DNA of 23,260 nt, taken from IMG/VR virus record IMGVR_UViG_3300005664_000096, positions 1 through 23,260 of that record, one strand, 5' to 3'. Positions 2,347 to 22,879 of this stretch are shown here, in pieces. This stretch comes from a virus. Under the pieces are notes generated by a model. It was not told where the DNA came from and made no database searches. It was given only the letters and a program-made list of their open reading frames with translations. Each line of letters starts with the position of its first letter. Position 1 is the first letter of the stretch. A program made the translations under genes and the position numbers.

Positions 2347-2394
2347 AATACCATTTTTGTGGTATTGTGAGGCATTTTTTATTTTTAGACCTTG
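2347..2394 (+). promoter_or_regulatory. Promoter/operator element 1 (AATACC-N8-GGTATT)
   Basis: The half-sites are AATACC at 2347-2352 and GGTATT at 2361-2366, with an 8-bp spacer. This is the most divergent member: its spacer (ATTTTTGT) differs from the others, and the -7 box is weak (TAGACCTTG at 2386-2394, against TAnnTTTG). It lies immediately after the helicase stop and 20 bp before the DUF3560 gene start, which is where a promoter for that gene would be expected. Confidence 0.55.
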
Positions 2395-2413
2395 TGTGAA
2401 AAATCAAAAGGAT

Positions 2414-3055
2414 ATGAATACCTACACAAAATTTTGCCCAAATGTTTTCCTTGCCAAATGCTCACAGAAGCACCACAAAGGCGAGGTTATCCAGGTCGAA
2501 ACCAAGTATGGCAAAGAAAATGAGTGCATCGTACACAACCTAATTTACGAAAAAGACGGGTTTTTCTTCTACTCAATCACCCGCGAAGATGGCACCAACG
2601 CCCAAACCGTAGCCCAAAAACGCCTTGAAAAGCTGGAAGGTTACGCTGGAAGCGCTGATGCAAAAAGCCATGAAGCTTGGGAGGCTTCGCATGAGGGACG
2701 CGATTTTTTAGCCCTTGGCGAACCAATCAAAGTTGGACACCACAGCGAACGCAGACACCGCGCCCTGATTGAGCGCAACCATAACAGAATGGCAAAAAGT
2801 GTGGAGCTTGCCGACAAAGCCGAAGAATACCGCCGCCGTGCTGAATATTGGGCAGGACGTACAGACATTATAAATTTGTCCATGCCTGAATCAATTGAAT
2901 ACTTTGAATATAAGCTACAAGAGACAATGATGGAACACGAAGGATTGAAGAATGGAATTATTCCACGTACTCACTCATTTTCTTTGTCATACGCTTCTAA
3001 AGCCGTTAAGGAAATGAAGAAAAATTTGGAGCTTGCAAAAAAACTTTGGGGATAA
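2414..3055 (+). CDS. DUF3560 family protein
   Basis: This protein has 213 residues from the ATG at 2414, which is preceded by AAAAGGAT. The frame is open further upstream, but that part overlaps operator 1 and looks non-coding. The diagnostic segment is G-E-P-I-K-V-G-H-H-S-E-R-R-H-R-A-L, followed by R-N-H-N-R-M-A-K-S-V-E-L-A-D-K-A-E-E-Y and further helix. This corresponds to the conserved core of DUF3560, found in plasmid, phage and mobile-element proteins. Its biochemical role is unknown. A C-terminal helical region follows, with no membrane segment. It is the first gene after the replication operon and is probably transcribed from element 1. The family call is confident; no function is assigned. 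Confidence 0.82.
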   Translation: MNTYTKFCPNVFLAKCSQKHHKGEVIQVETKYGKENECIVHNLIYEKDGFFFYSITREDGTNAQTVAQKRLEKLEGYAGSADAKSHEAWEASHEGRDFLALGEPIKVGHHSERRHRALIERNHNRMAKSVELADKAEEYRRRAEYWAGRTDIINLSMPESIEYFEYKLQETMMEHEGLKNGIIPRTHSFSLSYASKAVKEMKKNLELAKKLWG

Positions 3056-3138
3056 TGGAAGGCTGGACAAACCTCACCCTATCCCGCAAAGACGGCGTGT
3101 GGTGCATCTGTACCCGCGTCGCCTTTGTTCCACTTTAA
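3055..3138 (+). CDS. Possible 27-residue ORF after the DUF3560 gene
   Basis: An ATG at 3055 overlaps the preceding stop (TAATG) and opens a 27-codon frame starting MEGWTNLTLS. The overlap suggests translational coupling. The peptide is too short to classify, and the frame may be fortuitous. The sequence from 3139 to 3227 is GC-rich and without an evident gene. Confidence 0.25.
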   Translation: MEGWTNLTLSRKDGVWCICTRVAFVPL

Positions 3139-3227
3139 AAGGCACCCGCTGAACTTGTGGCGGCGTGTCCTGGAGCGCGGGGGAAATTGGAATAATTGGA
3201 TAATGAACTGTTTTAAATCAAACAAAC

Positions 3228-3671
3228 ATGAAAGATGAATTAATAAAAATCATTGCGGAGTATTTAGAAAGAAACACGCTGATTTCTTGCGTTTCTGGTG
3301 ATGAATGTAGGTATGAGTTTGCAGCCTCCGAAATCGCCGAAAAGCTACTTCCGATTGTAGGCGAAAAAGACTTTCCCTATGATGAACTATTTGACCACAT
3401 GGCGAATGAACACGGGCTGACACTGATCCAAGGCGAGTTGGGCGACATTATCCATATCGCGCGGAGTGGGAAGCAGAGAACCGGGTGGGAAGATGCGCCT
3501 ATTTGGGGCAACTTCAAAACAGAAATTGACGGTGATGTGTATTTTTTTGAAAACATATTTTACCCGTGCCGATATATGAAACTAGGCGACGAGACAGGAA
3601 GCAGAGGGAGTTTTTTTCTTCAAACAGTAGACCGGAATTGGAGTGGTGAAATCACAAAACGACCAAAATAA
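3228..3671 (+). CDS. Hypothetical phage protein
   Basis: This protein of 147 residues starts at ATG 3228 after an A-rich leader (ATCAAACAAAC). The sequence is acidic, with a helical N-terminus (residues 1-45) and a central segment D-H-M-A-N-E-H-G. The C-terminal half, rich in aromatic residues (Y-F-F-E-N-I-F-Y), looks like beta structure. There is no signal peptide, membrane segment or recognised family. It has no overlap with neighbouring genes and sits among early accessory genes. No function is assigned. Confidence 0.6.
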   Translation: MKDELIKIIAEYLERNTLISCVSGDECRYEFAASEIAEKLLPIVGEKDFPYDELFDHMANEHGLTLIQGELGDIIHIARSGKQRTGWEDAPIWGNFKTEIDGDVYFFENIFYPCRYMKLGDETGSRGSFFLQTVDRNWSGEITKRPK

Positions 3672-3735
3672 AACGACGCGCCCACTTGTCTAAGCTGGGG
3701 CATCAATTCAATTTGTAAATCGGAGTTACTTAGGA

Positions 3736-3770
3736 GCCGGGTGTAATGCCCGGCGCTTTTAAAATGCAAA
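3736..3770 (+). promoter_or_regulatory. Leader hairpin followed by TTTTAAAATGCAAA
   Basis: GCCGGG (3736-3741) pairs with CCCGGC (3749-3754) around a 7-base loop. It is followed by TTTTAAAATGCAAA at 3757-3770, four bases before the ATG at 3775. The same 14-mer follows a different GC-rich stem at 6571-6608. It may act as an attenuator, an mRNA-processing site or a weak terminator. A poor -33/-7 pair (CTTG at 3685-3688, TCAATTTG at 3708-3715) lies upstream and may be a weak promoter. Confidence 0.45.
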
Positions 3771-3774
3771 AACG

Positions 3775-3969
3775 ATGGTTGACATGTCAAAATTTATCCT
3801 TGTTCCTGAATCACTACCAGTTATTGGCGATCTTCAAGTATTGCGAGTAATGGTTACAGACGGGAACAAACAGCAAAAAGCGTCGTATCGATACAAAGAA
3901 TGGTCGCTTGGAGTTGATCCAATTATTACTTGCATTATCGCTTGGAGATATTTAACACTAGAAGATTGA
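3775..3969 (+). CDS. Small hypothetical protein
   Basis: This 64-residue protein starts at ATG 3775, just after the leader hairpin; a second ATG at 3784 could serve instead. The sequence begins MVDMSKFILVPESLP and is followed by a basic/aromatic stretch. It has no membrane segment and no recognised family. Its stop codon is the TGA of TTGA at 3966-3969, which overlaps a TTG usable as the start of the downstream nuclease, so the two are probably translated together. Confidence 0.5.
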   Translation: MVDMSKFILVPESLPVIGDLQVLRVMVTDGNKQQKASYRYKEWSLGVDPIITCIIAWRYLTLED

Positions 3970-4325
3970 TCCAATTCCTCTACATCCTTCGATCAACAAA
4001 CCCGCCCCGGTTCAAAATTGGGATCGGTTGGCACCTGCACAAGCGAACACGACAGGTTGACAAAACCACGAAAGGCCGCCAATCGGTTCTTGTGGCGTTT
4101 GTGATGCCGCTGGGGGCAAGATGGATTGAAACGTATCTGCATAGGCGATACCGGAAGCATCACGCGCCCTTGAAGTTTGGAAGCGGAAAGAGTGAATACT
4201 TCAAACGTGGTGCCTGGATTGCAGAGGCGCTGTTTATTGCCGGGCTGGTTTGCGCGGTACAGTGGCTTTGTGTTTGGGGTGTGATTGGGTTGGTTTTATT
4301 CATTGGTTTAAAATTTGGATTATGA
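3966..4325 (+). CDS. Predicted membrane-anchored GIY-YIG (T5orf172-like) nuclease
   Basis: This protein has 119 residues if it starts at TTG 3966, overlapping the previous stop. A TTG at 3930 would add 12 residues; no ATG is available before the conserved region. The motifs fit the GIY-YIG superfamily: Y-I-L near residues 6-8, K-I-G-I-G at 17-21, basic residues R27 and R29, the metal-ligand-like Glu of W-I-E-T-Y-L-H at 55, and S-E-Y-F near 76-79, a T5orf172-type ending. A long hydrophobic stretch follows (about residues 87-119), enough for one or two membrane passes. The enzyme would cleave DNA while tethered to the inner membrane. The nuclease fold is inferred from motifs, and the membrane anchor from hydrophobicity. 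It overlaps the next gene by ATGA. Confidence 0.68.
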   Translation: MIQFLYILRSTNPPRFKIGIGWHLHKRTRQVDKTTKGRQSVLVAFVMPLGARWIETYLHRRYRKHHAPLKFGSGKSEYFKRGAWIAEALFIAGLVCAVQWLCVWGVIGLVLFIGLKFGL

Positions 4326-4609
4326 AAGTCTATAAAACACCATGCAAAAATTGCCTGTTAAGCCCGGATGCTATTGTTAGCCCGGCAAGGCGCAAGGAAA
4401 TTATAAAGAAGTGCGCAAATCAACAAACTTTCTTTGTATGCCATAAAGCAAGCATCCAAGGCGGTGAAGATATTTGTTGCAAAACATTTTACGATAAACT
4501 TGGCCACGTTAGCCAAATGATAAGGATTGCGAAAAGATTAGGTATTGTCGAAGAAGTTGATCAACCAGATTGCGAAAAGTTGCCTAGTTGGGCTGAAACT
4601 CACAAATAA
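4322..4609 (+). CDS. Small Cys-rich, probable zinc-binding phage protein
   Basis: This protein has 95 residues from ATG 4322, which overlaps the stop of the nuclease gene. Cysteines and a histidine are placed like a metal site: C8, C11, C31, C40-H41 and C52-C53. The pattern C-K-N-C-L, then F-F-V-C-H-K, then C-C-K-T-F resembles small phage proteins with a CxxC, a later F-x-C-H and a final Cys before a helical tail. The biochemical role of such proteins is not known to me. Overlaps on both sides imply co-expression with the GIY-YIG protein. Confidence 0.6.
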   Translation: MKVYKTPCKNCLLSPDAIVSPARRKEIIKKCANQQTFFVCHKASIQGGEDICCKTFYDKLGHVSQMIRIAKRLGIVEEVDQPDCEKLPSWAETHK

Positions 4610-4737
4610 TGATCCTGTTCGAGTATTTCGATAAGTTGCCGAAGGAGATAGACCCCGCCGTTCAGCATGACACACGCCGTTTTAAAATACCATGTTTTGG
4701 GTATTTACTAGACCGGATTTTACCCCGATATTTGTAA
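4609..4737 (+). CDS. Possible 42-residue ORF running through operator 2
   Basis: The ATG at 4609 overlaps the previous stop (TAATG). The 42-codon frame begins MILFEYFDKLPKEIDPAVQH and looks plausible for its first 24 codons. It then continues through the operator/promoter element at 4686-4734. Either a short gene extends into the control region or an original C-terminus was replaced by it. No family is recognised. Confidence 0.3.
   Translation: MILFEYFDKLPKEIDPAVQHDTRRFKIPCFGYLLDRILPRYL
4686..4734 (+). promoter_or_regulatory. Promoter/operator element 2 (AATACC-N8-GGTATT plus -7 box)
   Basis: AATACC lies at 4686-4691, the spacer ATGTTTTG at 4692-4699 and GGTATT at 4700-4705. The -33-like TTTA (4704-4707) overlaps the right half-site. 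After 19 bp comes GATATTTG at 4727-4734, which matches TAnnTTTG at all but the first position. The -7 box begins 27 bp from the start of GGTATT, the same distance as in elements 3 and 4. The gene start at 4755 lies 21 bp beyond. Confidence 0.75.
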
Positions 4738-4754
4738 TAACAAAAACGCAAAAC

Positions 4755-5123
4755 ATGAAAGACATCAAAATCGAAGATTACAGCCTAAATAAAGGTGAAT
4801 TGTTCGCCCAGGTAAGCCTACCAACATTGGAAGGTGAAGCCAATTTCTTTAACATCTCATTCGATGAATGGGACGTAATTGAAGCCGCGCTTTCACTTAA
4901 TATTATTGAAGAGTTGTACGACTACGACAACGGTCGCAACGGTCAACAAATGCTAATTTCCTACATATACAACGAGAATACAAAATTTGAAAAAGTTGTT
5001 TACTACGACTATTCAGAGGTTGTTGATCGATGGTTTAATGGCGAAGCAGAAGAAGCAATTATTTTGCACATCGCAATGAAAGACACGCAAATTGAAAATG
5101 CCCTAACCTTACGGGCAATCTAA
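4755..5123 (+). CDS. Hypothetical acidic protein, first gene after operator 2
   Basis: This protein has 122 residues from ATG 4755, chosen because the open frame upstream overlaps the promoter. It is strongly acidic (many Glu and Asp), with alternating beta-like and helical segments: F-F-N-I-S-F-D-E-W-D, then Y-D-Y-D-N-G-R-N. It has no membrane segment, Cys cluster or recognised family. It heads a unit that continues with another small acidic protein and the Sak4-like ATPase, so it may be a recombination or regulatory accessory. That is inference from position. Confidence 0.6.
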   Translation: MKDIKIEDYSLNKGELFAQVSLPTLEGEANFFNISFDEWDVIEAALSLNIIEELYDYDNGRNGQQMLISYIYNENTKFEKVVYYDYSEVVDRWFNGEAEEAIILHIAMKDTQIENALTLRAI

Positions 5124-5186
5124 TCACCCCCAGCGGTCAAAGCCTACCCTATCGGGTGGGTTGCGACTGCGGGAAAATCCATAAAC

Positions 5187-5429
5187 ATGACACCAGAACA
5201 ACAAAGCAAGCAACAAAAACGAATCAACGCACAAATCAATTTCAATAAGATGGTTTTGCGCCAAATCTATCCACATTGGGAAGATTACCCACTTGAAGAA
5301 ATGCGCCAAATAGAAGCCTACAAAGGCGAAGACGCAGACGAATTTGAAGACTTTTCGGAAGAGGTACAAACAGTGTACTGGATGGTGCGCAATATTGAAA
5401 TCATGGAGGGTAAATACAGCGCCCTGTAA
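5187..5429 (+). CDS. Small acidic hypothetical protein
   Basis: This protein has 80 residues from ATG 5187. The N-terminus is Gln/Lys-rich (MTPEQQSKQQKRINAQ), followed by an acidic helix-rich part (G-E-D-A-D-E-F-E-D-F-S-E-E) and a Trp-containing C-terminus. There is no recognised family. It lies 11 bp before the ATPase gene and is likely co-transcribed with it. The 63-bp gap before it contains a small GC-rich inverted repeat (ACCC-TATC-GGGT). Confidence 0.55.
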   Translation: MTPEQQSKQQKRINAQINFNKMVLRQIYPHWEDYPLEEMRQIEAYKGEDADEFEDFSEEVQTVYWMVRNIEIMEGKYSAL

Positions 5430-5440
5430 ATTATAAACAA

Positions 5441-6547
5441 ATGTTCAAGAAATTGGAAAATAACCGACCCTTTATTAAAATGGCCTTTCAGGGCTTTGCG
5501 GGTGATGGTAAAACATACACCGCTGTGCAGTGTGCGATTGGATTGCATAAGCAAATTGGGAGCAAACTACCTATTGCTATTTTCGACACTGAAAAGGCGG
5601 CCAAAGCTCTTGTAGGTGTATTCGCTGACGCTGGTATTGAATGCGTCGTTGATGATGAACACCGCAGCCTTAAAGCGCTAAATGAGGCTATTGCATGGTG
5701 TGAAAATGGCGGGGCTGACATTCTTGTGATCGACTCTATCACCCATGTTTGGGAAGAGTTTTTGAAGGCTTATATGGATCAGAAACGGCGCACTCGTTTG
5801 GAGTTTCAAGATTGGGGGGTTATCAAGCCACAATGGAAGCAGCAATTTTCCACTCCATTTGTAAAGGCCAAAATCCACATCTTCTTTACTGGCCGTGCTG
5901 GGTATGAGTATGAAACCGAAAAGGATGAACAAACCGGAAAACGCGAAATCCATAAATCAGGAATCAAAATGAAAGCAGAAACCGAAACCGCTTTTGAGCC
6001 TGATGTACTTGTGCTTATGGAGAAACACCAGGATGTTTTAGGGGATACCAAGAAAATCACCCGTGTTGCAACTGTCTTGAAAGACCGTACTACCCGCACT
6101 GACGGCAAAACGTTTGTAAATCCAACTTACGCAGACTTCAAGCCTGCTTTTGATGTATTCCTAAACGGGCAATTAAAGCCCGATGTTATGCGAGAAATCA
6201 ACGATACCTTTGCAGAAAACGAGGAACGCGGTGCAGCATGGAAACGCGAACGTGATGTATTGCTTGCTGAAATCGAAAAAACCTTTGATTACATGAAGTT
6301 TGGCACCACTCAGGAGGCAAAATCTTTGAAAGCTGCTATCTTGAATAAGATTTTTGGCGCTGTTTCACTTGATGGGCTTGAGGCAAAAAGCAACGAGCAA
6401 TTGAAAAAAGGTGAGGCGGTTTTGAAAGGCTTTGCTGAGGATTACATTTCGTACATTGAGATTTGCACTGCATCGAAGGAAACGCCAACCACTGACCATA
6501 TCAAGGGATTGTTGGTGCAACGCATTGAGCAACCAGGGCTAATCTAA
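5441..6547 (+). CDS. Sak4-like RecA-fold ATPase (phage recombination)
   Basis: This protein has 368 residues from ATG 5441. Walker A GFAGDGKT is at 18-25, and Walker B I-L-V-I-D-S is at 94-99. The T-E-K of I-F-D-T-E-K-A and a Q-W-K-Q-Q-F segment fit the compact RecA-like core of AAA_24/Sak4 phage ATPases, which act in single-strand annealing recombination together with SSB. The C-terminal third (about 250-368) is a charged, helical extension longer than the minimal core. Neighbours encode small accessory proteins, a NinB-like protein and a VRR-NUC nuclease, which supports a recombination/replication role. The ATPase call is firm; the Sak4 assignment is by motif and context. Confidence 0.8.
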   Translation: MFKKLENNRPFIKMAFQGFAGDGKTYTAVQCAIGLHKQIGSKLPIAIFDTEKAAKALVGVFADAGIECVVDDEHRSLKALNEAIAWCENGGADILVIDSITHVWEEFLKAYMDQKRRTRLEFQDWGVIKPQWKQQFSTPFVKAKIHIFFTGRAGYEYETEKDEQTGKREIHKSGIKMKAETETAFEPDVLVLMEKHQDVLGDTKKITRVATVLKDRTTRTDGKTFVNPTYADFKPAFDVFLNGQLKPDVMREINDTFAENEERGAAWKRERDVLLAEIEKTFDYMKFGTTQEAKSLKAAILNKIFGAVSLDGLEAKSNEQLKKGEAVLKGFAEDYISYIEICTASKETPTTDHIKGLLVQRIEQPGLI

Positions 6548-6570
6548 TTTTTGATTTACTTTCATGTGTT

Positions 6571-6608
6571 CCCCGGCGGGGTTGACTGCCGGGGTTTTAA
6601 AATGCAAA
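6571..6608 (+). promoter_or_regulatory. Leader hairpin followed by TTTTAAAATGCAAA
   Basis: CCCCGGC (6571-6577) pairs with GCCGGGG (6588-6594). It is followed at once by TTTTAAAATGCAAA (6595-6608) and, three bases later, by the ATG at 6612. The 14-mer is identical to the one at 3757-3770 although the stem sequence differs. The stem plus T-run could act as a weak terminator or attenuator between the ATPase and the NinB-like gene. Confidence 0.5.
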
Positions 6609-6611
6609 GCA

Positions 6612-7058
6612 ATGGAGCTAACCTACTACGGCAAAGTATCAGAAAGCGGGGAAATAAGCCTGCCTAAGCACATCCGCAAAGAGGTAGGCAAGCTGTTTAC
6701 TGGTAAGTCGATAGAGGTTGTTTTTCGACGCAAAAAGAAGCACCGGACGACAAGCCAAAACGCTTACTATTGGGCGGTTGTAGTTTCGCTGATCTTGGAA
6801 GAATTTGTTAATCTAGGCAACGACTTGCAAGCAGGGAATAAGGAGCATTTAGAACTGGTACATGGCATGTTGAAAGACATGTTTTTGCCCGCCAAAGAAG
6901 TTACGGACGCTGACGGGGTAGTGATCAACCTACCCCCCACTACACGGGATTTATCGACGCTTGAATTTATGGAATATTTAGAGAAGGTGTGCCAGTTTGC
7001 GGCTGAACGTTTGCAACTGGTAATCCCTGCACCGGAAACGCAAGGGGAATTTTGGTAG
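6612..7058 (+). CDS. NinB-like phage recombination protein
   Basis: This protein has 148 residues from ATG 6612; the open frame upstream covers the hairpin and is rejected. The N-terminus contains strand-rich M-E-L-T-Y-Y-G-K-V, then a basic stretch R-R-K-K-K-H-R-T-T-S-Q-N-A-Y-Y-W. This matches the R/K-rich, S-x-Q-N-x-Y-Y-W signature of NinB/Orf-family DNA-binding proteins in phages of this phylum. A helical segment with H-G-M-L-K-D-M-F-L-P follows, and the C-terminus is rich in aromatic and hydrophobic residues. NinB-type proteins assist recombination by binding single-stranded DNA. Position after the Sak4-like ATPase agrees. Confidence 0.68.
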   Translation: MELTYYGKVSESGEISLPKHIRKEVGKLFTGKSIEVVFRRKKKHRTTSQNAYYWAVVVSLILEEFVNLGNDLQAGNKEHLELVHGMLKDMFLPAKEVTDADGVVINLPPTTRDLSTLEFMEYLEKVCQFAAERLQLVIPAPETQGEFW

Positions 7059-7094
7059 TAATACCCGGCTCCGGTCGGGCTAAATAAATGAACG

Positions 7095-7601
7095 ATGATC
7101 TTAGACCACATTAGAGCCGAGCAAACAACCGACAGCACACGCGGAATCCTGATCCAACACGAAAAAGCAGAGTTTCCAGAATGGCTTTGCGATGTCCTTG
7201 AAGACGGCTACCGTAAAGTAAAAGAACACGGTAAGACGCGCATCGACGCGAAAACTTACTATGTTGTGCCAATCCAGTACGGACGCTTCTACGAGCGCTA
7301 TAACGAAGCGCACGGGCATAAGTTCGCCATTGCGCTAATGGATAAGCCAGGGGTTGACCGTGCAGGCCGTCACGGGAATGTGAGGGTGCATAAGCTCAAT
7401 AAGGTTACAGAAACGGAAGGATGTCCAGGTGTTGGGCAAATCAGGTATTCTAGCCTTGAAAAAAACTTTCACCTGCTTGCTGGCACTTCTACCCCGGCAT
7501 ACTTGCGCCTGTACAAGTTGCTGGAACCATACTACAACGAAGAAACGAAAGCCTTTTCGGAGGATATTTTTTGGCGGATCACAGAACAGTTTCACCAATG
7601 A
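7095..7601 (+). CDS. DUF5675-like protein, candidate cell-wall enzyme
   Basis: This protein has 168 residues from ATG 7095. The central motif is G-N-V-R-V-H-K (H99), then T-E-T-E-G-C-P-G-V-G (C110). This is the H...T-x-G-C-x-x-V-G arrangement of DUF5675-type proteins, which are common in phages and resemble L,D-transpeptidase-like Cys enzymes. Preceding residues (A-K-T-Y-Y-V-V-P and A-L-M-D-K-P-G-V) fit the strands before that motif. The N-terminal 50 residues are less typical. No signal peptide is visible, so if it acts on peptidoglycan it needs a holin or similar route. It overlaps the nuclease gene by ATGA. An enzyme role is inference from the motif. Confidence 0.6.
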   Translation: MILDHIRAEQTTDSTRGILIQHEKAEFPEWLCDVLEDGYRKVKEHGKTRIDAKTYYVVPIQYGRFYERYNEAHGHKFAIALMDKPGVDRAGRHGNVRVHKLNKVTETEGCPGVGQIRYSSLEKNFHLLAGTSTPAYLRLYKLLEPYYNEETKAFSEDIFWRITEQFHQ

Positions 7602-8107: not shown

Positions 8108-8118
8108 AACCCATTGGA

Positions 8119-8277
8119 ATGAAAAAGTCATACATATTTTTTCTTTCGGCTTTTATTCTATTTGGGGCATCACAACTTGCAGATGATACCACCCGTAGGT
8201 TATTCGGGCTAACCCTATGTTGTATGTGTGTTTGCACTGGATTTATTTTAGCCGAAATTGAAAAACATAATCCATGA
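8119..8277 (+). CDS. Small membrane protein, 52 residues
   Basis: The ATG at 8119 opens a 52-codon frame beginning MKKSYIFFLSAFILFGASQ. Two hydrophobic segments (about 5-20 and 28-44) flank a short polar loop (A-D-D-T-T-R-R), and the second contains L-C-C-M-C-V-C. It looks like a two-pass inner-membrane protein. The stop overlaps the next ATG (ATGA at 8274-8277). It follows the nuclease and, two genes upstream, the DUF5675-like gene. It could be a small holin-like protein or an accessory membrane protein; this is inference from topology alone. Confidence 0.5.
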   Translation: MKKSYIFFLSAFILFGASQLADDTTRRLFGLTLCCMCVCTGFILAEIEKHNP

Positions 8278-8363
8278 AACTAGGAATCTTCATTTTGTTT
8301 CTGGCCTGGATGGCCTACACGTTTTCGGACGTTAAAATCAAACTGCCAACATGGAAAAGGTAG
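8274..8363 (+). CDS. Tiny single-pass membrane protein, 29 residues
   Basis: The ATG at 8274 overlaps the previous stop, and this frame's stop (8361-8363) overlaps the start of the next gene at 8351. The peptide starts MKLGIFILFLAWMAYTFSDV: one hydrophobic helix followed by a basic tail ending W-K-R. Overlaps on both sides support real translation, though the length is very short. No family is recognised. Confidence 0.4.
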   Translation: MKLGIFILFLAWMAYTFSDVKIKLPTWKR

Positions 8364-10957: not shown

Positions 10958-11006
10958 AATACCATGTTTTAGGTATTGGAAGGCAACGATAGGCGGACTA
11001 TTTTTG
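10958..11006 (+). promoter_or_regulatory. Promoter/operator element 3 (AATACC-N8-GGTATT plus -7 box)
   Basis: AATACC lies at 10958-10963, the spacer ATGTTTTA at 10964-10971 and GGTATT at 10972-10977. The -33-like ATTG overlaps the right half-site, and TATTTTTG at 10999-11006 matches TAnnTTTG exactly, again 27 bp from the start of GGTATT. It drives the small + genes at 11025 and 11282, which lie inside the - strand late region. Confidence 0.82.
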
Positions 11007-11024: not shown

Positions 11025-11222
11025 ATGATCATGCACTTTAGCCATACCAAAGAATTTTATGACCTGATGGGTGAATTTGAAAAAGTCTTTAATCACAAAA
11101 GACTAGACAGAGAAGATAAGTCAATATGGCCAAAACAAAGGTATTATCAAGACTGGTCGACAAACGATTTATTCTGTGCCTACCTTCATGGTTATCAAAA
11201 CGGTCGATCTGTTTATATGTAA
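11025..11222 (+). CDS. Small moron-like protein
   Basis: This protein has 65 residues from ATG 11025; an ATG at 11031 is an alternative. It contains M-H-F-S-H-T-K-E-F-Y-D-L-M-G-E-F and ends D-W-S-T-N-D-L-F-C-A-Y-L-H-G-Y-Q-N-G-R. The final A-Y-L-x-G-Y-x-x-G-R pattern recurs in many small phage proteins, but I assign no function. It is soluble and mixed-charge. Its own promoter/operator lies 19 bp upstream, and a terminator follows the next gene. It is therefore an independent unit of opposite polarity to the surrounding late genes. Confidence 0.65.
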   Translation: MIMHFSHTKEFYDLMGEFEKVFNHKRLDREDKSIWPKQRYYQDWSTNDLFCAYLHGYQNGRSVYM

Positions 11223-11234
11223 TTTAACCACCAA

Positions 11235-11265
11235 CCCCGCCGCAACCAAGCCGGGAGTGGCGGGG
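11235..11265 (+). promoter_or_regulatory. Leader hairpin between two moron-like genes
   Basis: CCCCGCC (11235-11241) pairs with GGCGGGG (11259-11265). An A-rich stretch and the ATG at 11282 follow. There is no T-run, so it is not a classical terminator. It resembles the stems upstream of other genes in this window and may modulate translation or mRNA processing. Confidence 0.4.
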
Positions 11266-11281
11266 GAAAATCAAAGGAAAT

Positions 11282-11476
11282 ATGGAAAGTTATCACAAAC
11301 TCACCTACGACCTAATCCCGGGGCAAACCGACCGGGAAAAATACAATAGTATGTTATTGATTGTCGAGCTTTTAAACGACTTGTCCTTTCCGAAAAGAGG
11401 CGATGAAAAAAGCTTGATAGACTTGATTGAAAAGGCGCTTGAAATATCCGATCACTACATTGAGGTCAGAAAATAA
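11282..11476 (+). CDS. Small moron-like helical protein
   Basis: This protein has 64 residues from ATG 11282, preceded by AAAGGAAAT. The sequence M-E-S-Y-H-K-L-T-Y-D-L-I-P-G-Q is followed by two probable helices (N-S-M-L-L-I-V-E-L-L-N-D-L and S-L-I-D-L-I-E-K-A-L-E-I). It is soluble, mildly acidic and of no known family. It is co-transcribed with the 65-residue gene upstream from element 3 and ends 6 bp before the stem of a terminator. Confidence 0.6.
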   Translation: MESYHKLTYDLIPGQTDREKYNSMLLIVELLNDLSFPKRGDEKSLIDLIEKALEISDHYIEVRK

Positions 11477-12520: not shown

Positions 12521-12552
12521 TTTGTTTTTGTGGTATGAAAAGTTTAAATTTG
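12521..12552 (+). promoter_or_regulatory. Possible + strand promoter in a late intergenic gap
   Basis: TTTG (12521-12524), 20 bp, then TAAATTTG (12545-12552) matches the Bacteroidota promoter exactly. It points into the gap before the holin gene's 3' end, which contains a + strand stem-loop with a T-run at 12651-12677. The A/T-rich leader of the - strand gene starting at 12513 could mimic such a motif by chance. Confidence 0.4.
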
Positions 12553-13144: not shown

Positions 13145-13753
13145 TTAGAAATCCATATAAACCCGCATCTCGTGCGGCGCTTTTCTGTTGCCTCCAAAAT
13201 AAGCACCAACCTTTCCGATGGTCTTGTATGGTCGGTCGTTTTCCTGCGTTCCTAGTAAATTGTTGTCGATATACAAAGCGTACTTTCCATTGATTTCGTC
13301 CAGGCTAAACCGGAACACCTGCCCGGCATGAACCTTGTAGATTGCGCTTTCGTGCGGCACGTTAGCCTTTGCGATGTTTTCATACAGACAAAGTTCAAAC
13401 GATCCATAAACCTTCGTGTCAGGTCGCCAAGCTAAAATAAAGCTGTTCACGTCCTTGAAGCCGTCGAAGTAGCGGTAAACGCCTGCTAGCTTATTCCAGT
13501 CCGATTGGTCGGAGCCTAGTGTGTTGTACCAGCACGATAAATCAAACATAGCCACCCCGTCAAAGCTCCGCGCCTCACCCGGGAACGGAAAAGGGGAGGG
13601 GGTGAAGTCTTTGCGGTTGTAGCCTACCCGATATTCTTTTAGCTCGGGTAGTATCTGTTCGGTGGTTGAGCAGGAGGATAGGTATAGGATTAACCCCATG
13701 ACTAGGATCACCCACAACCACCACTCTTTTAAAAGTCCTTTTAAAAATACCAT
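13145..13753 (-). CDS. Predicted phage-encoded lipoprotein
   Basis: This protein has 202 residues from the ATG at 13753. A hydrophobic helix and the lipobox L-S-S-C (Cys28) mark a lipoprotein signal peptide. The mature part is rich in aromatic and beta-like segments: S-F-I-L-A-W-R-P-D, H-A-G-Q-V-F-R-F-S-L, K-Y-A-L-Y-I-D-N-N-L-L-G. It may adopt a jelly-roll or concanavalin-like fold, as in carbohydrate-binding proteins; this is a guess from sequence character. The start codon lies inside operator element 4 on the other strand, so regulator binding there could affect both genes. It probably acts at the cell surface, for example by altering receptors or blocking superinfection. Confidence 0.6.
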   Translation of the reverse strand: MVFLKGLLKEWWLWVILVMGLILYLSSCSTTEQILPELKEYRVGYNRKDFTPSPFPFPGEARSFDGVAMFDLSCWYNTLGSDQSDWNKLAGVYRYFDGFKDVNSFILAWRPDTKVYGSFELCLYENIAKANVPHESAIYKVHAGQVFRFSLDEINGKYALYIDNNLLGTQENDRPYKTIGKVGAYFGGNRKAPHEMRVYMDF

Positions 13754-13794
13754 GTTTTGGGTATTTACACAGTGAAAAAGTATTTGCAATTTTG
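13746..13794 (+). promoter_or_regulatory. Promoter/operator element 4 (AATACC-N8-GGTATT plus -7 box)
   Basis: AATACC lies at 13746-13751, the spacer ATGTTTTG at 13752-13759 and GGTATT at 13760-13765. The -33-like TTTA is at 13764-13767. After 19 bp comes CAATTTTG at 13787-13794, matching TAnnTTTG except at the first position and again 27 bp from the start of GGTATT. The core is identical to element 2. The start codon of the divergent lipoprotein gene lies within the operator. Confidence 0.75.
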
Positions 13795-13819: not shown

Positions 13820-13960
13820 ATGAAAATGAGAGATCGTTACACATTAAAAGCTTACCTCTATCATGTAAAAAGGGGTCATTTAAAATTCTCATTTTTGCGC
13901 GCCATTAAGTGTGCGCTTTACGGCGGGCACGCCCAACGGAGAAAATATGTATGGTTTTGA
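13820..13960 (+). CDS. Small basic moron-like protein, 46 residues
   Basis: This 46-codon frame from ATG 13820 begins MKMRDRYTLKAYLYHVKRGH and ends R-R-K-Y-V-W-F. It is strongly basic (Lys, Arg and His throughout) and without a membrane helix, so it might bind nucleic acid. It lies 25 bp after the -7 box of element 4, with an A-run just before the start, and 6 bp before the stem of a + strand terminator. The promoter-gene-terminator arrangement, opposite in direction to the surrounding late genes, argues strongly that the frame is real despite its size. No family is recognised. Confidence 0.65.
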   Translation: MKMRDRYTLKAYLYHVKRGHLKFSFLRAIKCALYGGHAQRRKYVWF

Positions 13961-14697: not shown

Positions 14698-14707
14698 ATT
14701 GTGGTTT

Positions 14708-17700: not shown

Positions 17701-17746
17701 GGAAAGCGGGGATTAAAAGTAGGAAAAGTAGAATATTATGTTTCAT
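14708..17746 (-). CDS. Large phage tail-fibre/appendage protein with signal peptide
   Basis: This 1012-residue protein begins with a hydrophobic signal peptide (MKHNILLFLLLIPAFLFAQ). Low-complexity Gly/Ser/Thr-rich sequence follows, with fibre-type repeats typical of Bacteroidota phages: R-S-Y-I-L-P-D-V-N-G-T-L-A-L near 170, R-L-G-I-G-T-N-T-P-S-Q-A-V-E-I near 295, and a G-I-G-I segment followed by A-R-L-H-V-K near 855. The C-terminal 70 residues (T-F-T-L-N-M-P-A-S-P-D-D-G-Q-V-C, ending G-W-I-K-L-Y) resemble a conserved fibre end domain. Fibres of this kind bind host surface receptors. A Sec signal on a virion protein is unexpected, since virions assemble in the cytoplasm. It overlaps the upstream gene by 4 bp. 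Confidence 0.8.
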   Translation of the reverse strand: MKHNILLFLLLIPAFLFAQYPNTGNKARLGYQTTGDGLIWRGVAADTVLKPRVIAHAYFQLDTVNGVLRRYIATNGSWQVVGGGSDTDSTVYATRYWTSSNFFPLEGGTLTGTGGAGFIGLPDQVTAASTPASGLNIYAQGSSFNFKGTDGFERQFGGTITGGRSYILPDVNGTLALGTGTTDRSARWSGTNTLAAGNITDNGTKLEALKPWQFNSSSLAGLPTGVSRYIMDISDYDWFARYSSTAGAWVPPLQASSTGLPGGKGTAGSLLFLDANGRGTQDNANLFWNNSTKRLGIGTNTPSQAVEIYTPTTTSVNLLKLQTATHPVANILFNMNGFQGTISAHLLSLASTQGTAPSIYMANNQITASFSTASTSNNINLRANTLVGGSFGFLFTSNVERKYYVMQQDASYIGGFDVGVNFATYDHRNTIGTIDKGQVQFKMAPSKENWIGDGAVDNNYNFYVTQPSTGYGMITTTSGSSTISGFGASTLFTKDFNVGTTITLNSTTFTILTITNDYTATVSPTPGFSGSYNYTINNSSSIRFGVYKNGGIEINPAVGQTRYDITTTGIKGYGVPRGTDAQRPTILTSTTPFRYSTDSTALEYGESVGTWRQVATREYARSMRTGGTVTSVGLSLPSIFSVSGSPVTSSGTLSASFTGGTSSLFLRGDGRWMRSLYFNSTDSVQFNITDPYFGSTALMSLKGFDSGFDSRFNFADYGYVNHALAVSSGDDARYNFDVSGGTIASPTALAKNNRIGGLYFRPYNGSSYRKAGYFGALVDSVSGSNISAKMIFGISRINSAETSSFWKFLIKEFRNISIIDYVVGGDVGIGIAQGLSLETAVINARLHVKGTGTTTGKTMLLEDSGGAAILTVTDNKTIQAHGYGVGAKKDSNLSKTRSDFVAGFATDGTVLDIPSNTELYNTITSTTSPQTLSSTRADNLINQGSTQATFTLNMPASPDDGQVCTITFNNAISTLTIDGNGETIVGSAVVTGVPGSQRKFKFYSGIGWIKLY

Positions 17747-18273
17747 ATTACTAAGCCGAAATCGTTATAAAATTCGTCATCTTCGCAACAATCACAGTCA
17801 GGGCAACCTACCGCGCTAGGTACAAAATCAGGCAATGCATAAGCGGAAGCACAAAGCCAATCCTTTGTCATTTGCTGCTGTGCTGTTATTCGCTGGCGCA
17901 AAGTGTCCTGGTAGAACTTTACCCCATCCATGCCCGCGTTTTTCCCGTATTCGTTGTCGAGTAGATAGAGGCCATTTGTGCCAAGCTGTAAGCCAATGTA
18001 AGGAGCGGCTTCGTATAGCACAGAATTGGCGCACAATGCTTTTAGGTTCGTATCCCAAAGCTCCTGATAGGCTGAGGTAGTGAATGCGCTGGAATCACCT
18101 TTTTCAGCCACCAGCGCGCTATAAAAGTCGCTACCAATTGCGTCCTTTACCCACCGAAACTCAGCAACCGGAATATGAGGCGATACCAACGACTTATCCA
18201 GCCGAATGTCTGCCGGGCTAGGTCGTGCGGTGCCGCCTTGGATTACTTCAAGGGGTTGGATTAGCTGCGCCAT
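17743..18273 (-). CDS. Putative head-tail connector-like protein (DUF6712-like)
   Basis: This protein has 176 residues; the start ATG at 18273 lies inside the end of the portal gene (26-bp overlap). The N-terminal part (A-D-I-R-L-D-K-S-L-V-S-P-H-I-P-V-A-E, then I-G-S-D-F-Y-S-A-L) and the helical L-W-D-T-N-L-K-A-L-C-A-N-S-V-L-Y-E-A-A-P-Y-I resemble small proteins encoded after the portal in Bacteroidota phages. The C-terminus has a Cys/Asp cluster (C-P-D-C-D-C-C-E-D-D-E) that could bind metal. Its position between portal and fibre supports a connector or neck role. The family name is tentative. Confidence 0.55.
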   Translation of the reverse strand: MAQLIQPLEVIQGGTARPSPADIRLDKSLVSPHIPVAEFRWVKDAIGSDFYSALVAEKGDSSAFTTSAYQELWDTNLKALCANSVLYEAAPYIGLQLGTNGLYLLDNEYGKNAGMDGVKFYQDTLRQRITAQQQMTKDWLCASAYALPDFVPSAVGCPDCDCCEDDEFYNDFGLVI

Positions 18274-19678
18274 CTGCGATTTGATTTCCGGTTATTGATT
18301 CTGGTTGCTGGTTTTCATCGGGCGGATAACCTAGTAATTCGCGTTTTTCATCGCGGGTCAAGTTCAATTCAGGGCTGATTTCACCTAAGAAGGATACAGG
18401 CATGGTATTAACAATACCAAACTGCACGCCATTCAAAACCTTAACTGAAGCCGAAAGCTCCTGTAAATATGGATTTATCACCCGGTTGCAAATCAGGTTT
18501 TGACGGGGTTTAATGATTGTGCTTTGTACTTTTTCGGTTTCGCTCTTTAACTCCTGGTTGCTGCCAAGTTTCCCTGCGGTACTAATGCCAGCTAGCACCT
18601 TAGACCAGCCCGCAGCCGTTACGATGTTTTCAGCAGCGGATTGTTGAAGCTCCAAAAATTCCCCATCATTTTGGCGATCCATTGGAATCCAGTTGGCCTT
18701 TAGTTTCTCATCCCGTAAAAGCTGAACGAGTAGTTTATGGTTGTTCCCGGTTCCGGTGAATTTCTTTTCAAATCGTTCAACAATCTTTTTGGCCTCAGTT
18801 GGCGTTGCAGAGCCGAACAATTGCAAAATACCAGACGGGATAAAAGAGTTATAAAGCTTGGAAACATTGAAGCGCTGGATTTGGTATTCAAGCTCTGCCC
18901 ACAACCTCGCGCTGATCCAGTCGGGTAAACCCCAATAAGTATAGCCAGAACAGTAGTTTTTGATATGAATGATGCTGCGTTCGGTACCGTCTGGCATTCG
19001 TGTCCAGTTTGGATAGGCTGCGATTTCACGGAAGCCTTTGTCAACATACCCGGTGCCATCACTTGAAAGTGGCATTTCTTCCCAGTTATCATAAATACCA
19101 TAAGACTTGATGATCTGGTCAAGCCCGGTTCTACGTATACCTACGTTATACAAATCAACATTGTAGATATCACAAAAAGCACTCCCCCCAACCTTACCTC
19201 GCACCAGTTCAAAAACAGCGTTCCCGAATGCCTCAAAATCATAACTCCCGACCGCGTTCACATCGGCCAGAGTTTGCCCGTGTTCATTTACTTTTTCAAT
19301 TGCGGATTCAATGTCTTCAAGTTGTCGCCCTGTTATTGGGGTTGGCTTTTCAGTTGTGGCGAGTAAACTAGAAGATTTGCCCTTAATTGGAATGTAGCCA
19401 TCACCCACAATCATACTTACTTTATCAGAAATAATGCGGCGTAGGGTAGGTGAGTTGTTGACGCAAGCAATTAAGCCTTTTAGAAATTCATCCCTTTTCT
19501 CAAACATCCTGACCCACTGATCGCCACGTCTTTGCAGGCGTTCCCGTGAAGGTTCGTTAAAAATGTCTTGCGTGATAAGGAATGTATCTTTTGGGCTTAT
19601 TTCAACCGAGGCGAGAATAGTAGATTGCCCAAACTTTTTTTGTCGTGTTGCAGTGGCCTTGGTTGTGGTTGTGGTCAT
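18248..19678 (-). CDS. Phage portal protein
   Basis: This protein has 476 residues from the ATG at 19678. An upstream in-frame ATG at 19705 lies in the loop of a hairpin and is less likely. The sequence follows the PBSX/HK97-type portal pattern: an N-terminal arm, W-V-R-M-F-E-K-R-D-E-F, I-S-D-K-V-S-M-I-V-G-D-G-Y, then I-H-I-K-N-Y-C-S-G-Y-T-Y-W-G-L-P-D-W-I-S-A (the conserved Y-x-G-L-P motif). A helical region ends N-L-I-C-N-R-V-I-N-P-Y-L. Portals form the dodecameric ring through which DNA enters and leaves the capsid. The C-terminus is Pro/Asn/Gln-rich. Confidence 0.85.
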   Translation of the reverse strand: MTTTTTKATATRQKKFGQSTILASVEISPKDTFLITQDIFNEPSRERLQRRGDQWVRMFEKRDEFLKGLIACVNNSPTLRRIISDKVSMIVGDGYIPIKGKSSSLLATTEKPTPITGRQLEDIESAIEKVNEHGQTLADVNAVGSYDFEAFGNAVFELVRGKVGGSAFCDIYNVDLYNVGIRRTGLDQIIKSYGIYDNWEEMPLSSDGTGYVDKGFREIAAYPNWTRMPDGTERSIIHIKNYCSGYTYWGLPDWISARLWAELEYQIQRFNVSKLYNSFIPSGILQLFGSATPTEAKKIVERFEKKFTGTGNNHKLLVQLLRDEKLKANWIPMDRQNDGEFLELQQSAAENIVTAAGWSKVLAGISTAGKLGSNQELKSETEKVQSTIIKPRQNLICNRVINPYLQELSASVKVLNGVQFGIVNTMPVSFLGEISPELNLTRDEKRELLGYPPDENQQPESITGNQIADGAANPTP

Positions 19679-19694
19679 GGTTGAAATTAAATTA

Positions 19695-19717
19695 GCCCCC
19701 AGCATTGCACCGGGGGC
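19695..19717 (-). promoter_or_regulatory. Leader hairpin upstream of the portal gene
   Basis: GCCCCC (19695-19700) pairs with GGGGGC (19712-19717). On the - strand the stem is followed by TAATTTAATTTC and then the preferred portal start at 19678. Like the + strand leader hairpins in this window, it sits just before a gene and lacks a proper T-run. It could attenuate transcription or protect and process the mRNA between the tube-like gene and the portal gene. Confidence 0.5.
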
Positions 19718-19740
19718 GTATATTAAAACCTAGTTGCTAG

Positions 19741-20286
19741 TTACGTCAAATCGGTTACAACGGCAGCGTTCACAAGCTCCCTTGCTTTCTCGCTGGTTGT
19801 ACACGTCAGGGTGATTGTCTCCTGGTTTGGATCAGTAAATGCCGTCCCTGTTGTACCTTCGTTAGTGGTAAGGATAGCAGTGCGCACAAGCCCGCCAACT
19901 TCGACGTTACCCCAAATCCAGTACTTGCCCGTATTTTCACCGTGGACAGGCACGACCCCGCAGCCATTGCCGCCAAGTTCCTCGATCACATCCCGAAGCG
20001 ACTGGTTGCGACAGGTAATAATACCCGTAAAGGTTTGCACCACGCTCTTGGCTTTAGTTACCGGATCGACGGTCATGGTTTCAGTAAACACGGCGCTATC
20101 CTGCCGAAACTCAAACTCGTAAAATACCGCTGCGGAACTGGTCAAAGTAATTTCACTCACCTTGCCGTTGGCAGACGTGGTTACGCTGGTGTATTCATCC
20201 CCATTTGCCAGATAAAGCAAACCCGCACCGCCTGGGCAAGTCCCGTCTGTGCAGTTGTTTGCCCATCCTCCTGATAAACTACTCAT
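19741..20286 (-). CDS. Putative virion structural protein (tail-tube-like)
   Basis: This protein has 181 residues and no signal peptide. The sequence is beta-rich with many Thr and Val: L-Y-L-A-N-G-D-E-Y-T-S-V-T-T, A-V-F-Y-E-F-E-F-R-Q-D-S-A, then V-Q-T-F-T-G-I-I-T, G-K-Y-W-I-W-G-N-V-E-V-G-G and T-N-E-G-T-T-G-T-A-F. The pattern of long strands and a G-K-Y-W-x-W-G segment is common in tube or major-tail-like proteins of Bacteroidota phages. It lies between capsid and portal, an unusual place for a tail-tube gene. A head-completion or decoration role is an alternative. Confidence 0.55.
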   Translation of the reverse strand: MSSLSGGWANNCTDGTCPGGAGLLYLANGDEYTSVTTSANGKVSEITLTSSAAVFYEFEFRQDSAVFTETMTVDPVTKAKSVVQTFTGIITCRNQSLRDVIEELGGNGCGVVPVHGENTGKYWIWGNVEVGGLVRTAILTTNEGTTGTAFTDPNQETITLTCTTSEKARELVNAAVVTDLT

Positions 20287-20296
20287 ATCGTTTAGA

Positions 20297-21277
20297 TTAG
20301 TAGCCTACACTAATAAGGCTAGGGTGAATGTAATTTGAACCCATTTTGAACCGTGCTTTCACGTAGTTTTTCTCGTCCTTGTCGTCAAACCAAATGCGCA
20401 ATTCACTGGAAGGATCAAGTACGTCGGTAGCAAGAACCTTGTTCATTTTGGTGGTGTACTCCACGTAATGAGGCAAGGTTGTACCAAGTGCGGTTGCAAT
20501 CTCGTCCCAACGCCACATTGGCCGGACTTCAATGCCACGGAAATACAGGCGTGGAGAGCCGTCGATTAAGGTCATCAAACCGAAATCACCGCCGCCGCCT
20601 TCTTCGATGTCCTCTTGGTATTGCATCCAAACTGACCCGGTTACATTCAGCACCTTTTCAGCATTTGGAAGTCCCTTGAGTTGCAGCGGCGCTTGGTCGT
20701 ACACGGCGCGCAAAATTGCGATACCATCACCGCTTGCCATTGCTGTACCTGATCCGGTGTTTGTGCGAGGAATCAATCCGTCAGCCACAAGGCCGGGATA
20801 GTATACCGTCCAAAAGCCGTCAATTGTATCGTAATTGGGGTTTGCACTTGCTTTGTTGCCGAAATACAGCAAACGAGATAAGTCCATTTTAACCCCTTGA
20901 CGGGCGCGGTTCATCAGAATGTCGCCAATTTGAGTATCAACCACATTGGAAATGTCGGTGCCAGTGCGAAGCAATTCCTCAAATACAGTGTCCTCAAATT
21001 CGTCCCAGCACAATTCAAGGTCAACTTTCATTTTGTTAACCTCAATTTCGCGCTCGTAGATCGAAAGTGATCCAACCGGGTTAAACCCGCAGCCCGTATA
21101 TTTGCGGATGATATTTTCAAGCGGGCGCACAAAACCAATTTTCTTTTTGTTCATGACGTTGCCCATTACCCGAAACTCATTCAGGGTGTCAGCGTCAAAA
21201 AAGATCGGCTCCAAAAATAATTTGTTGGCTTCGGTTCCCACGAACCGCACATCCAACTCGCCTAATTCTACTGCCAT
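20297..21277 (-). CDS. Major capsid protein
   Basis: This 326-residue protein has features consistent with an HK97-fold capsid protein. An N-terminal arm carries R-P-L-E-N-I-I-R-K-Y. An extended helix-rich region follows with E-L-C-W-D-E-F-E-D-T-V-F-E-E-L. Next come D-I-L-M-N-R-A-R-Q-G, D-G-F-W-T-V-Y-Y, A-I-L-R-A-V-Y-D-Q-A-P, an I-D-G-S-P-R-L-Y-F-R-G-I-E-V-R-P turn and a C-terminal V-K-A-R-F-K-M-G-S-N-Y segment. It follows a prohead protease and a probable decoration protein in the expected order. Capsid proteins of this type assemble into a procapsid and mature after proteolysis of scaffold. The call rests on motif layout and context. Confidence 0.8.
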   Translation of the reverse strand: MAVELGELDVRFVGTEANKLFLEPIFFDADTLNEFRVMGNVMNKKKIGFVRPLENIIRKYTGCGFNPVGSLSIYEREIEVNKMKVDLELCWDEFEDTVFEELLRTGTDISNVVDTQIGDILMNRARQGVKMDLSRLLYFGNKASANPNYDTIDGFWTVYYPGLVADGLIPRTNTGSGTAMASGDGIAILRAVYDQAPLQLKGLPNAEKVLNVTGSVWMQYQEDIEEGGGGDFGLMTLIDGSPRLYFRGIEVRPMWRWDEIATALGTTLPHYVEYTTKMNKVLATDVLDPSSELRIWFDDKDEKNYVKARFKMGSNYIHPSLISVGY

Positions 21278-21289
21278 TGCTTTAAATTT

Positions 21290-21766
21290 TTAGCTTAGGG
21301 TGTAAGATTCGGTTCCAGAACTGTTGCCATAAATCGCGGCTGAATCAATGTGGTAGCTGAACTGTACTTGCGTTGCACCGTCAGTGTTTGAAGTCGAAAA
21401 GATCACTTTCCAGTCATCATTTTTGTTCAGGGCGGAAGTGGTCACTACAAGCGCGGTTGTAGCTGCGCTGGACTGGAAGCCCGTTGCGTATGCTTCATTT
21501 CCGCTTTCATCCACAACCGTGAACTTGATGTAGTCCGTTGCAGTCGTCGCACCCGTTGACGGGGTGAAGGTGATCTGTACACCAGCGGAAGCCACAGCCC
21601 AGGTATGTGCTACGCTGTGACGGTCTTGGAATGTATCAACTCCAAATAGCTCAACGGATTGGTCTTCACCGTCGTTGGCGTAGGGGTTTGTGCGGGTCAA
21701 ACTGTTGGCAGTAATGTAATTCGCCGAAGGTTGCCAGCTATTTGCGTTTTGAACTGCACTAGCCAT
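21290..21766 (-). CDS. Probable capsid decoration or head protein
   Basis: This protein has 158 residues with no signal peptide. It is rich in Ala, Ser and Thr, with alternating beta-like segments: V-Q-I-T-F-T-P-S-T-G-A, Y-I-K-F-T-V-V-D-E-S-G-N, and Q-V-Q-F-S-Y-H-I-D-S. Its position between the prohead protease and the major capsid gene is where head decoration proteins are usually encoded. The start directly abuts the protease gene's last base (21766), suggesting coupling. No specific family is recognised; the role is inferred from position and composition. Confidence 0.6.
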   Translation of the reverse strand: MASAVQNANSWQPSANYITANSLTRTNPYANDGEDQSVELFGVDTFQDRHSVAHTWAVASAGVQITFTPSTGATTATDYIKFTVVDESGNEAYATGFQSSAATTALVVTTSALNKNDDWKVIFSTSNTDGATQVQFSYHIDSAAIYGNSSGTESYTLS

Positions 21767-22767
21767 TATCGCGTGAGTTTTTGTGTGAACATTTTAGCCC
21801 ATCCTTTGAAGTTGGCAGAGGCGGGAGTTTCTTCTGGCTTGTCGTCAGTGCGGGTACTTGCGCCGCTTGGAGCGCTCATCTGCTGCTTAACCTGCGCCTT
21901 TACGGCTTGCATTTCAGCGGCCAGGGCTTGCATGGTTTCGGCAAGTTGTACATTGGTTTCTTCAACCTCAGCCGCTTTAGTTGTCAGGGCTGCGATTTCT
22001 TCCGCAGTCATCACTTTGAAGCCGGATTTTTCTAGCAGTTCCTTTGCTTGGTCTGCTGTCATTTCCGGTGCTTGTGGTTCGGTTACTGCTTCAACGGTTT
22101 CGGGTTCATCCGCACCGCTCAAAGTAGCCATAGCCTTTGCCAGTAATTCTTTTACTGTCATGTCTTCCGGTTTATTGTTATTGAATAAAGCAGCCGGGAC
22201 GTTTACGTACCTTGCGAGTGCGGGCTGCATTTGAATTATATTTGCTTGTTTTGAAGTCTCTTGGATTTCATCGATAAACCCCATGTCTAGGTCTTCCTGT
22301 GCGGTAATCCACGACTCTGCATCCAACCATCGTTGTACCGTTATCTGAATGTTGCCGTTAATTTTACCCGACTTTTGGAGTTTTGAAACGTAGATGTTTT
22401 GTAGCTTTTCCTCCATCTTTGCCAGCAGGTCAGCCGTTGCGGTGAGTTCGTTGCTATCACCTACCGCCATAGTCCACGGGTTGTGGATCATTAAAAAGCT
22501 ATTGGGTGTCATTTTCACCCGCTTGCCTGCGAGTAACACAACAGAGGCGATTGAGGCGACAAGGCCAAAGCCTAGCGTTGTAACTTCGCCCGCGTACGCT
22601 TCGAGCATGTCAACCATTGCCAGTCCTTCGGTTACTTCACCGCCGGGGCTGCTTATGTTTAGGGTTACATCTTGCCCTGCTGCATCATTGAGTTGATAGC
22701 GCAAGTAGTTAGCCGGGTAGCCCCAGCCGTTGCCAATTTCGCCTAAAATGTCGATTTCGTACGCCAT
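21766..22767 (-). CDS. ClpP-type prohead protease with scaffold-like C-terminus
   Basis: This protein has 333 residues. The first about 175 form a ClpP/S14-like serine protease domain: I-S-S-P-G-G-E-V near 38-45, catalytic Ser72 in L-V-A-S-I-A-S, His95 in F-L-M-I-H-N-P-W, probable Asp149 in L-D-A-E-S-W-I-T-A, then M-G-F-I-D-E-I. From about 205 the protein is Ala/Glu/Gln-rich and helical (A-E-T-M-Q-A-L-A-A-E-M-Q-A-V-K-A-Q-V), as in internal scaffolds. The last residues are basic (M-F-T-Q-K-L-T-R). Such proteins guide procapsid assembly and then digest the scaffold. It is the first late gene in the window and is divergent from element 5. Confidence 0.85.
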   Translation of the reverse strand: MAYEIDILGEIGNGWGYPANYLRYQLNDAAGQDVTLNISSPGGEVTEGLAMVDMLEAYAGEVTTLGFGLVASIASVVLLAGKRVKMTPNSFLMIHNPWTMAVGDSNELTATADLLAKMEEKLQNIYVSKLQKSGKINGNIQITVQRWLDAESWITAQEDLDMGFIDEIQETSKQANIIQMQPALARYVNVPAALFNNNKPEDMTVKELLAKAMATLSGADEPETVEAVTEPQAPEMTADQAKELLEKSGFKVMTAEEIAALTTKAAEVEETNVQLAETMQALAAEMQAVKAQVKQQMSAPSGASTRTDDKPEETPASANFKGWAKMFTQKLTR

Positions 22768-22831
22768 ATGCTTAGATATGCGCGCAAAATATCACTGATT
22801 TGGTTATTGAAGTGGCAAGACTGGTTTATAA

Positions 22832-22879
22832 AATACCGTGTTTTGGGTATTGTGAAAAGGTGAGGATTTTGTAATTTTG
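22832..22879 (+). promoter_or_regulatory. Promoter/operator element 5 (AATACC-N8-GGTATT plus -7 box)
   Basis: AATACC lies at 22832-22837, the spacer GTGTTTTG at 22838-22845 and GGTATT at 22846-22851. The -33-like ATTG overlaps the right half-site. After 19 bp comes TAATTTTG at 22872-22879, an exact TAnnTTTG match, 26 bp from the start of GGTATT (one less than in elements 2-4). It drives the + genes from 22910 and is divergent from the prohead protease gene; only a poor - strand promoter is visible for that gene. Confidence 0.8.

Follow-up and report, generated by a model that had tools for sequence, protein, structure and literature searches.

The locus studied here raises the question of why a virus should carry one palindromic element in several dispersed copies, and which protein would read them. 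The window, by which we mean the whole stretch of DNA analysed, is a 23,260-base IMG/VR virus record in which a first-pass annotation had described five AATACC-N8-GGTATT elements of uniform orientation as the operators of a putative phage regulon. All five were recovered as exact matches with the promoter direction on the plus strand (Table 1), while only ∼0.002 exact copies are expected by chance from the base composition. When up to two mismatches were allowed, 8 palindromes were seen against a mean of 0.99 in dinucleotide shuffles, none of which attained 8, and AATACC was the single half-site that recurred among the commonest 6-8-6 palindromes listed. Four of the copies are entirely intergenic and the fifth (copy 4) overlaps a minus-strand gene by 8 bases on its 5′ end, a placement with a probability of ∼3e-6 given that intergenic DNA makes up 8.4% of the window. 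The spacer [A/G]TGTTTT[G/A] is kept in four copies, as had been claimed, and copy 1 has ATTTTTGT instead. Inspection of the five copies found no Fur box of the AGAATnATTCT-type 19-mer, and neither CRP/FNR form (TGTGA-N6-TCACA or TTGAT-N4-ATCAA) is present in their sequence. No Rfam match was found in the window, so the repeats do not correspond to a known RNA element. A separate repeat occupies the left edge (positions 1-52), where two tandem iteron-like copies of AAAATATCAAGGGGGGTTGAT and a partial third are cut by the end of the record.

The elements coincide with promoters of the Bacteroidota housekeeping-sigma type, in which a -7 box (TAnnTTTG) stands at a set distance from a -33 element. 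Such a box lies 20 to 21 bp past the end of GGTATT in four copies (26 to 27 bp when counted from the first G of GGTATT) and matches at least 5 of 6 positions, whereas a box of that quality at 20 to 21 bp occurs by chance at 2.4% of positions. The corresponding box of copy 1 matches only 3 of 6, which bears out the earlier description of it as weak. Exact intergenic TTG-N19/20-TAnnTTTG promoters were found with the operator at 10999 and 22872 and without it at 12545, and another exact match on the minus strand (10879) also lacks it. Since intergenic promoters of this form exist both with and without the palindrome, the operator is selective.

Table 1. Palindrome copies, -7 boxes, and adjoining genes in the window
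Feature	Position	Strand	Remark
DnaB-like helicase gene	1005..2345	+	Precedes copy 1; shares 79% identity with G006
Operator copy 1, AATACCATTTTTGTGGTATT	2347..2366	+	Directly 3′ of DnaB-like helicase gene
Degenerate -7 box of copy 1, AGACCTTG	2387-2394		
DUF3560 gene	2414..3055	+	Follows copy 1
Operator copy 2, AATACCATGTTTTGGGTATT	4686..4705	+	
-7 box of copy 2, GATATTTG, 5/6	4727..4734	+	21 bp past GGTATT
Unknown 122-aa gene, the first behind copy 2	4755..5123	+	
Sak4-like ATPase, recombination operon after copy 2	5441..6547	+	phrog_1366, phrog_124
Operator copy 3, AATACCATGTTTTAGGTATT	10958..10977	+	
-7 box of copy 3, TATTTTTG, 6/6	10999..11006	+	21 bp past GGTATT
Pair of short ORFs (65 and 64 aa)	11025..11476	+	Inside minus-strand region
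Operator copy 4, AATACCATGTTTTGGGTATT	13746..13765	+	
-7 box of copy 4, CAATTTTG, 5/6	13787..13794	+	21 bp past GGTATT
One-gene unit, basic 46-aa ORF	13820..13960	+	Hairpin and T run 3′
Operator copy 5, AATACCGTGTTTTGGGTATT	22832..22851	+	
-7 box of copy 5, TAATTTTG, 6/6	22872..22879	+	20 bp past GGTATT
Unknown 51-aa gene, the first behind copy 5	22910..23065	+	

Related viral records contain further copies. The helicase match to G006 (43,970 bp), several early genes that match G007 (44,330 bp), and late genes at ∼39 to 59% identity to G005 and G012 indicate that the window and its relatives are mosaics of one lineage. In both G006 and G007 a site also lies 3′ of the helicase gene, and site 2675 of G007 precedes a small ORF with a Sak4-like gene farther on. 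Copies also occur upstream of small genes that oppose the late genes. The assignment of the copies to the units behind them holds for several of these units, but copy 2 is followed first by the 122-aa ORF, a weak homologue of which lies 3′ of a site in G006, and the Sak4-like ATPase and NinB-like genes come later. The 64-aa ORF behind copy 3 is 83% identical to an ORF of G007. In a set of seven viral records, made up of the window and six of its relatives, 24 sites with no more than one mismatch were found, and they are intergenic except for two that overlap mechanical 101-aa ORFs running across the promoter.

The helicase and portal proteins have only distant matches among named phages. A candidate capsid gene (20297-21277, minus strand) matches a Bacteroides phage only, at 23% identity, which supports a putative Bacteroidota host. 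Relatives of the DUF3560 protein at 45 to 60% identity occur in Porphyromonas gingivalis and Pasteurella phages as well as in a human fecal phage record. G006 additionally encodes a type IV CRISPR-like cluster (L178:2419-5680, minus strand) with Csf3- and Csf2-like proteins below curated cutoffs and a PAPS-reductase/CysH-like gene.

The full promoter unit, AATACC-N8-GGTATT-N20-22-TAnnTTTG, was matched in 101 of 395 Bacteroidia genomes and its reversed-pattern control in none of the 395, while the spacer-specific form was found in 101 genome stretches, predominantly of Bacteroidota. Among 121 such sites picked by the palindrome only, with no -7 box required, a -7-like box (at least 5 of 6) stood at exactly 21 bp in 39 and at any other single spacing in 0 to 5. 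A box in the reverse direction also peaked at 21 bp (11 sites), as a palindrome that works in both directions would be expected to show. The 157 distinct host sites show a spacing of 21 bp in 121 cases, 20 bp in 29, and 22 bp in 7. In these 157 sites GGTATT is followed by G in 74% and by T in 19%, which makes the right half-site run into the -33 element, as had been suggested for the phage copies. The start codon lies at a median of 82 bp past the first base of the motif. From the geometry of Bacteroidota promoters, the center of the host palindrome would fall ∼42 bp before the transcription start, which is a class II activator position. The earlier annotation had left open whether a dimer blocks or recruits RNA polymerase, and this position would favor recruitment.

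The genes downstream of the host sites are mainly those of iron and heme uptake. In the 131 nearest genes, the Pfam families included DUF4856 (23), TonB plug (19), FeoA (6), FeoB (4), HmuY (4), imelysin (3), and FTR1 (1), together with the hemerythrin family. A Fur-like AGAAT..TTCT element near 18 of the 157 host sites suggests that Fur repression may be combined with a separate activator. The exact phage-type spacer is commonest in the genome G017, where 14 copies of NTGTTTTN precede mixed cargo genes rather than iron genes. In the same genome, a ∼100-bp repeat (AAACTACGTAGGC...AAATACC[A/C]TGTTTTNGGTATTGTGGG) lies upstream of unrelated cargo genes in L033, L064, L069, L071, and L105 and resembles a promoter cassette that is being spread.

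The host sites are linked to genes for GerE-domain regulators. For about 27 of the 157 sites (309 kb), a number that includes two near-identical Alistipes sequences and hence events that are not all independent, such a gene lies no more than 1.2 kb away, against a background of 1 in 403 kb at similar loci. It commonly ends just upstream of the site or is the first gene downstream. The TACC-N8-GGTA core, present in all five phage copies, has the 16-bp span of the NarL 7-2-7 operator. The bias of the spacer heptamers toward TACYYMT is weak, with a score of 2.96 compared with 2.76 in shuffled sequences, and 26 of 1,000 shuffles reach 2.96.

The palindrome might instead be a constitutive module that strengthens the upstream and -33 region for the host sigma factor with no regulator involved, and its unvarying spacing to the -7 box and its overlap with the -33 element would fit such an arrangement. 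We regard this as very improbable, however, because both halves share a dyad symmetry, the GerE linkage is far above background, and the targets are functionally narrow. Slightly less credible still is the proposal that the hosts read the sites with a different activator of iron genes, for which the MerR-like protein MliR of Bizionia would be an example. Binding sites of MerR proteins are usually located between -35 and -10, and GerE genes recur beside the sites described here. The target classes do overlap, as loss of MliR lowers imelysin-like and FeoB-associated transcripts (PMC9478572).

A single subfamily accounts for most of the site-linked GerE genes. Ahead of the GerE domain its proteins have three cysteines (C107, C127, and C154 in the numbering of L148) that are invariant across nine aligned members. 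The members L148:789-1454 (minus strand), L094:2566-3228 (minus strand), and L234:764-1435 (plus strand) are linked to iron genes. A three-cysteine regulator (at least 198 bits) was detected in 14 of 20 genomes with sites and 18 of 60 without, a co-occurrence for which the Fisher P value of 0.002 is approximate, as the 80 genomes are related; the regulator is absent from 6 of the 20 site-bearing genomes. Its profile matches VraR, ChrA, and NarL, and no NCBIfam equivalog was found at the cutoff. A model of one three-cysteine LuxR protein, folded without an alignment, matches LiaR, VraR, RcsB, and NarL, and its pLDDT of 61.6 supports the fold class but not the geometry of the cysteines. The three-cysteine proteins retain the phospho-acceptor Asp, while the acidic pair of the receiver is absent in L148 and partly kept in L094. 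The protein is plausibly an iron or redox sensor and a candidate Fe-S sensor; possibly it binds iron or an Fe-S cluster. For G017, no clear three-cysteine LuxR protein was recognized among the 25 GerE loci compared, the best of which was 44% identical in the GerE domain. This, together with the mixed cargo behind its sites, makes iron control in the phage's own host only probable.

Other regulators also adjoin the sites. One linked type is an ordinary response regulator with a GerE-only 65-aa ORF behind the site. Two such ORFs (L041:1494-1691 and L355:1782-1976, both on the minus strand) lie directly behind an operator, each preceded by a complete LuxR gene, and they possibly modulate the regulator. 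In Alistipes, a fusion of an Fe-S-repair (RIC)/hemerythrin domain with GerE has its own operator (L119:5199-6131 and L093:2402-3334, both on the plus strand) and is a candidate for a second sensor type.

The search for a reader encoded by the phages themselves gave a different picture, as none of eight viral records, the window among them, yielded a GerE gene. A host regulator is thus the simplest reading. An operator of the phage's own would call for a phage-encoded repressor, for example of the XRE/Cro type, that sits on the -33 element and silences the plus-strand units, as in lysogeny or an early/late switch. G006 and G007 do encode small XRE/HTH_3 proteins, the site overlaps the -33 element, and the phages have many more sites per kilobase than the hosts do; that the window is a fragment and its relatives carry XRE proteins also counts against a host regulator. 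We nevertheless consider a repressor unlikely, since it would not account for the promoter in 101 of 395 bacterial genomes with matching spacing, iron genes, and linked GerE genes, and since a scan of 69 proteins, drawn from the window and two relatives, recognized no integrase family. The notion of an operator private to the phage is not supported, the same promoter unit being common in Bacteroidia, where it keeps the exact 21-bp spacing, stands mainly before iron-uptake genes, and has GerE regulators next to it.

A scan of the viral collection found the full promoter in 29 stretches and a control with a scrambled palindrome in 19, with a surplus at the 21-bp spacing (13 versus 6), and nearly all of the other viral records with the motif hold a single copy. 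The motif is thus rare in viruses beyond this phage group, and no general claim is made for Bacteroidota phages.

Collectively, the evidence makes it likely that the phage copies are host-type promoters under a host NarL-type activator, a reading in which the binding, the activation, the signal that is sensed, and the use of the promoter in the phage's host are all inferred from sequence. A host-encoded NarL/FixJ-type (LuxR, GerE-domain) dimer would bind TACC-N8-GGTA, with its right half-site on the -33 element of a Bacteroidota housekeeping-sigma promoter, 20 to 22 bp before the -7 box, and with its center near -42 it would most likely act by class II recruitment of RNA polymerase. In Bacteroidia this promoter stands mainly before genes of iron and heme uptake, and one main regulator type is the receiver-like and GerE protein in which three cysteines are invariant, plausibly a sensor of iron or redox state. 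The host activator is probably iron- or redox-responsive. Through the promoter, which the phage has copied several times, the unit behind the helicase gene, the recombination operon, and the small accessory genes would be coupled to the host regulator and expressed while that regulator is active. Such wiring suggests that the virus ties early and accessory genes to the nutrient-stress control of its host. Only tentatively would we go further and propose an undescribed, phylum-wide iron-response system of Bacteroidota, in which the three-cysteine NarL-type regulator would activate the AATACC-N8-GGTATT promoters, and which a phage lineage would have captured, multiplying these promoters so that the expression of its takeover genes follows the iron status of the host. 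The literature searched yielded no description of the operator, the promoter grammar, the three-cysteine link, or their use by a Bacteroidota phage, and it offered no match on DUF4856 or on LuxR-type iron regulators.

Several parts of this arrangement are of known kinds, including NarL-type regulators and Bacteroidota promoters. The -7 box and spacing of the housekeeping-sigma promoters (-33 TTG and -7 TAnnTTTG) recur in four of the five copies, but here, unlike in plain promoters of that class, the -33 element is joined to a palindromic operator. Promoters repressed by Fur differ in that the Fur-like element, seen near some host sites, is found at none of the phage copies. The regulators resemble the NarL/FixJ proteins NarL, VraR, LiaR, RcsB, and ChrA in sequence and fold, with a receiver-like and a GerE part, and differ from them in the three cysteines that are invariant ahead of the GerE part. 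CdhR of Porphyromonas gingivalis belongs to the LuxR family. As a heme-uptake regulator of Bacteroidota it offers a parallel, and HmuY-like genes are among the targets of the sites; in the account cited within PMC9666725 (Wu et al. 2009), CdhR regulates hmuYR.

The closest established precedent is found in cyanophages S-PM2d and P-SSM2, whose Pho boxes are read by the host PhoBR (PMC10976474). There, as proposed here, early and replication genes of a phage come under a host regulator of nutrient limitation, and a host operator is imitated, the phage copies in the present case being identical to the host operator and promoter. The cyanophage system concerns phosphate, PhoB, and cyanobacteria and is backed by gel-shift and expression proof, whereas the present one would concern a NarL-type regulator, Bacteroidota, and probably iron. 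Regulons can be annotated directly with the pattern AATACC-N8-GGTATT-N20-22-TAnnTTTG, and for a widespread class of Bacteroidota iron-uptake promoters there is now an operator that can be tested, together with a candidate for its regulator. As with the Pho boxes, the window offers a candidate case, outside the cyanobacteria, of phage core genes wired to a host nutrient-limitation regulator.
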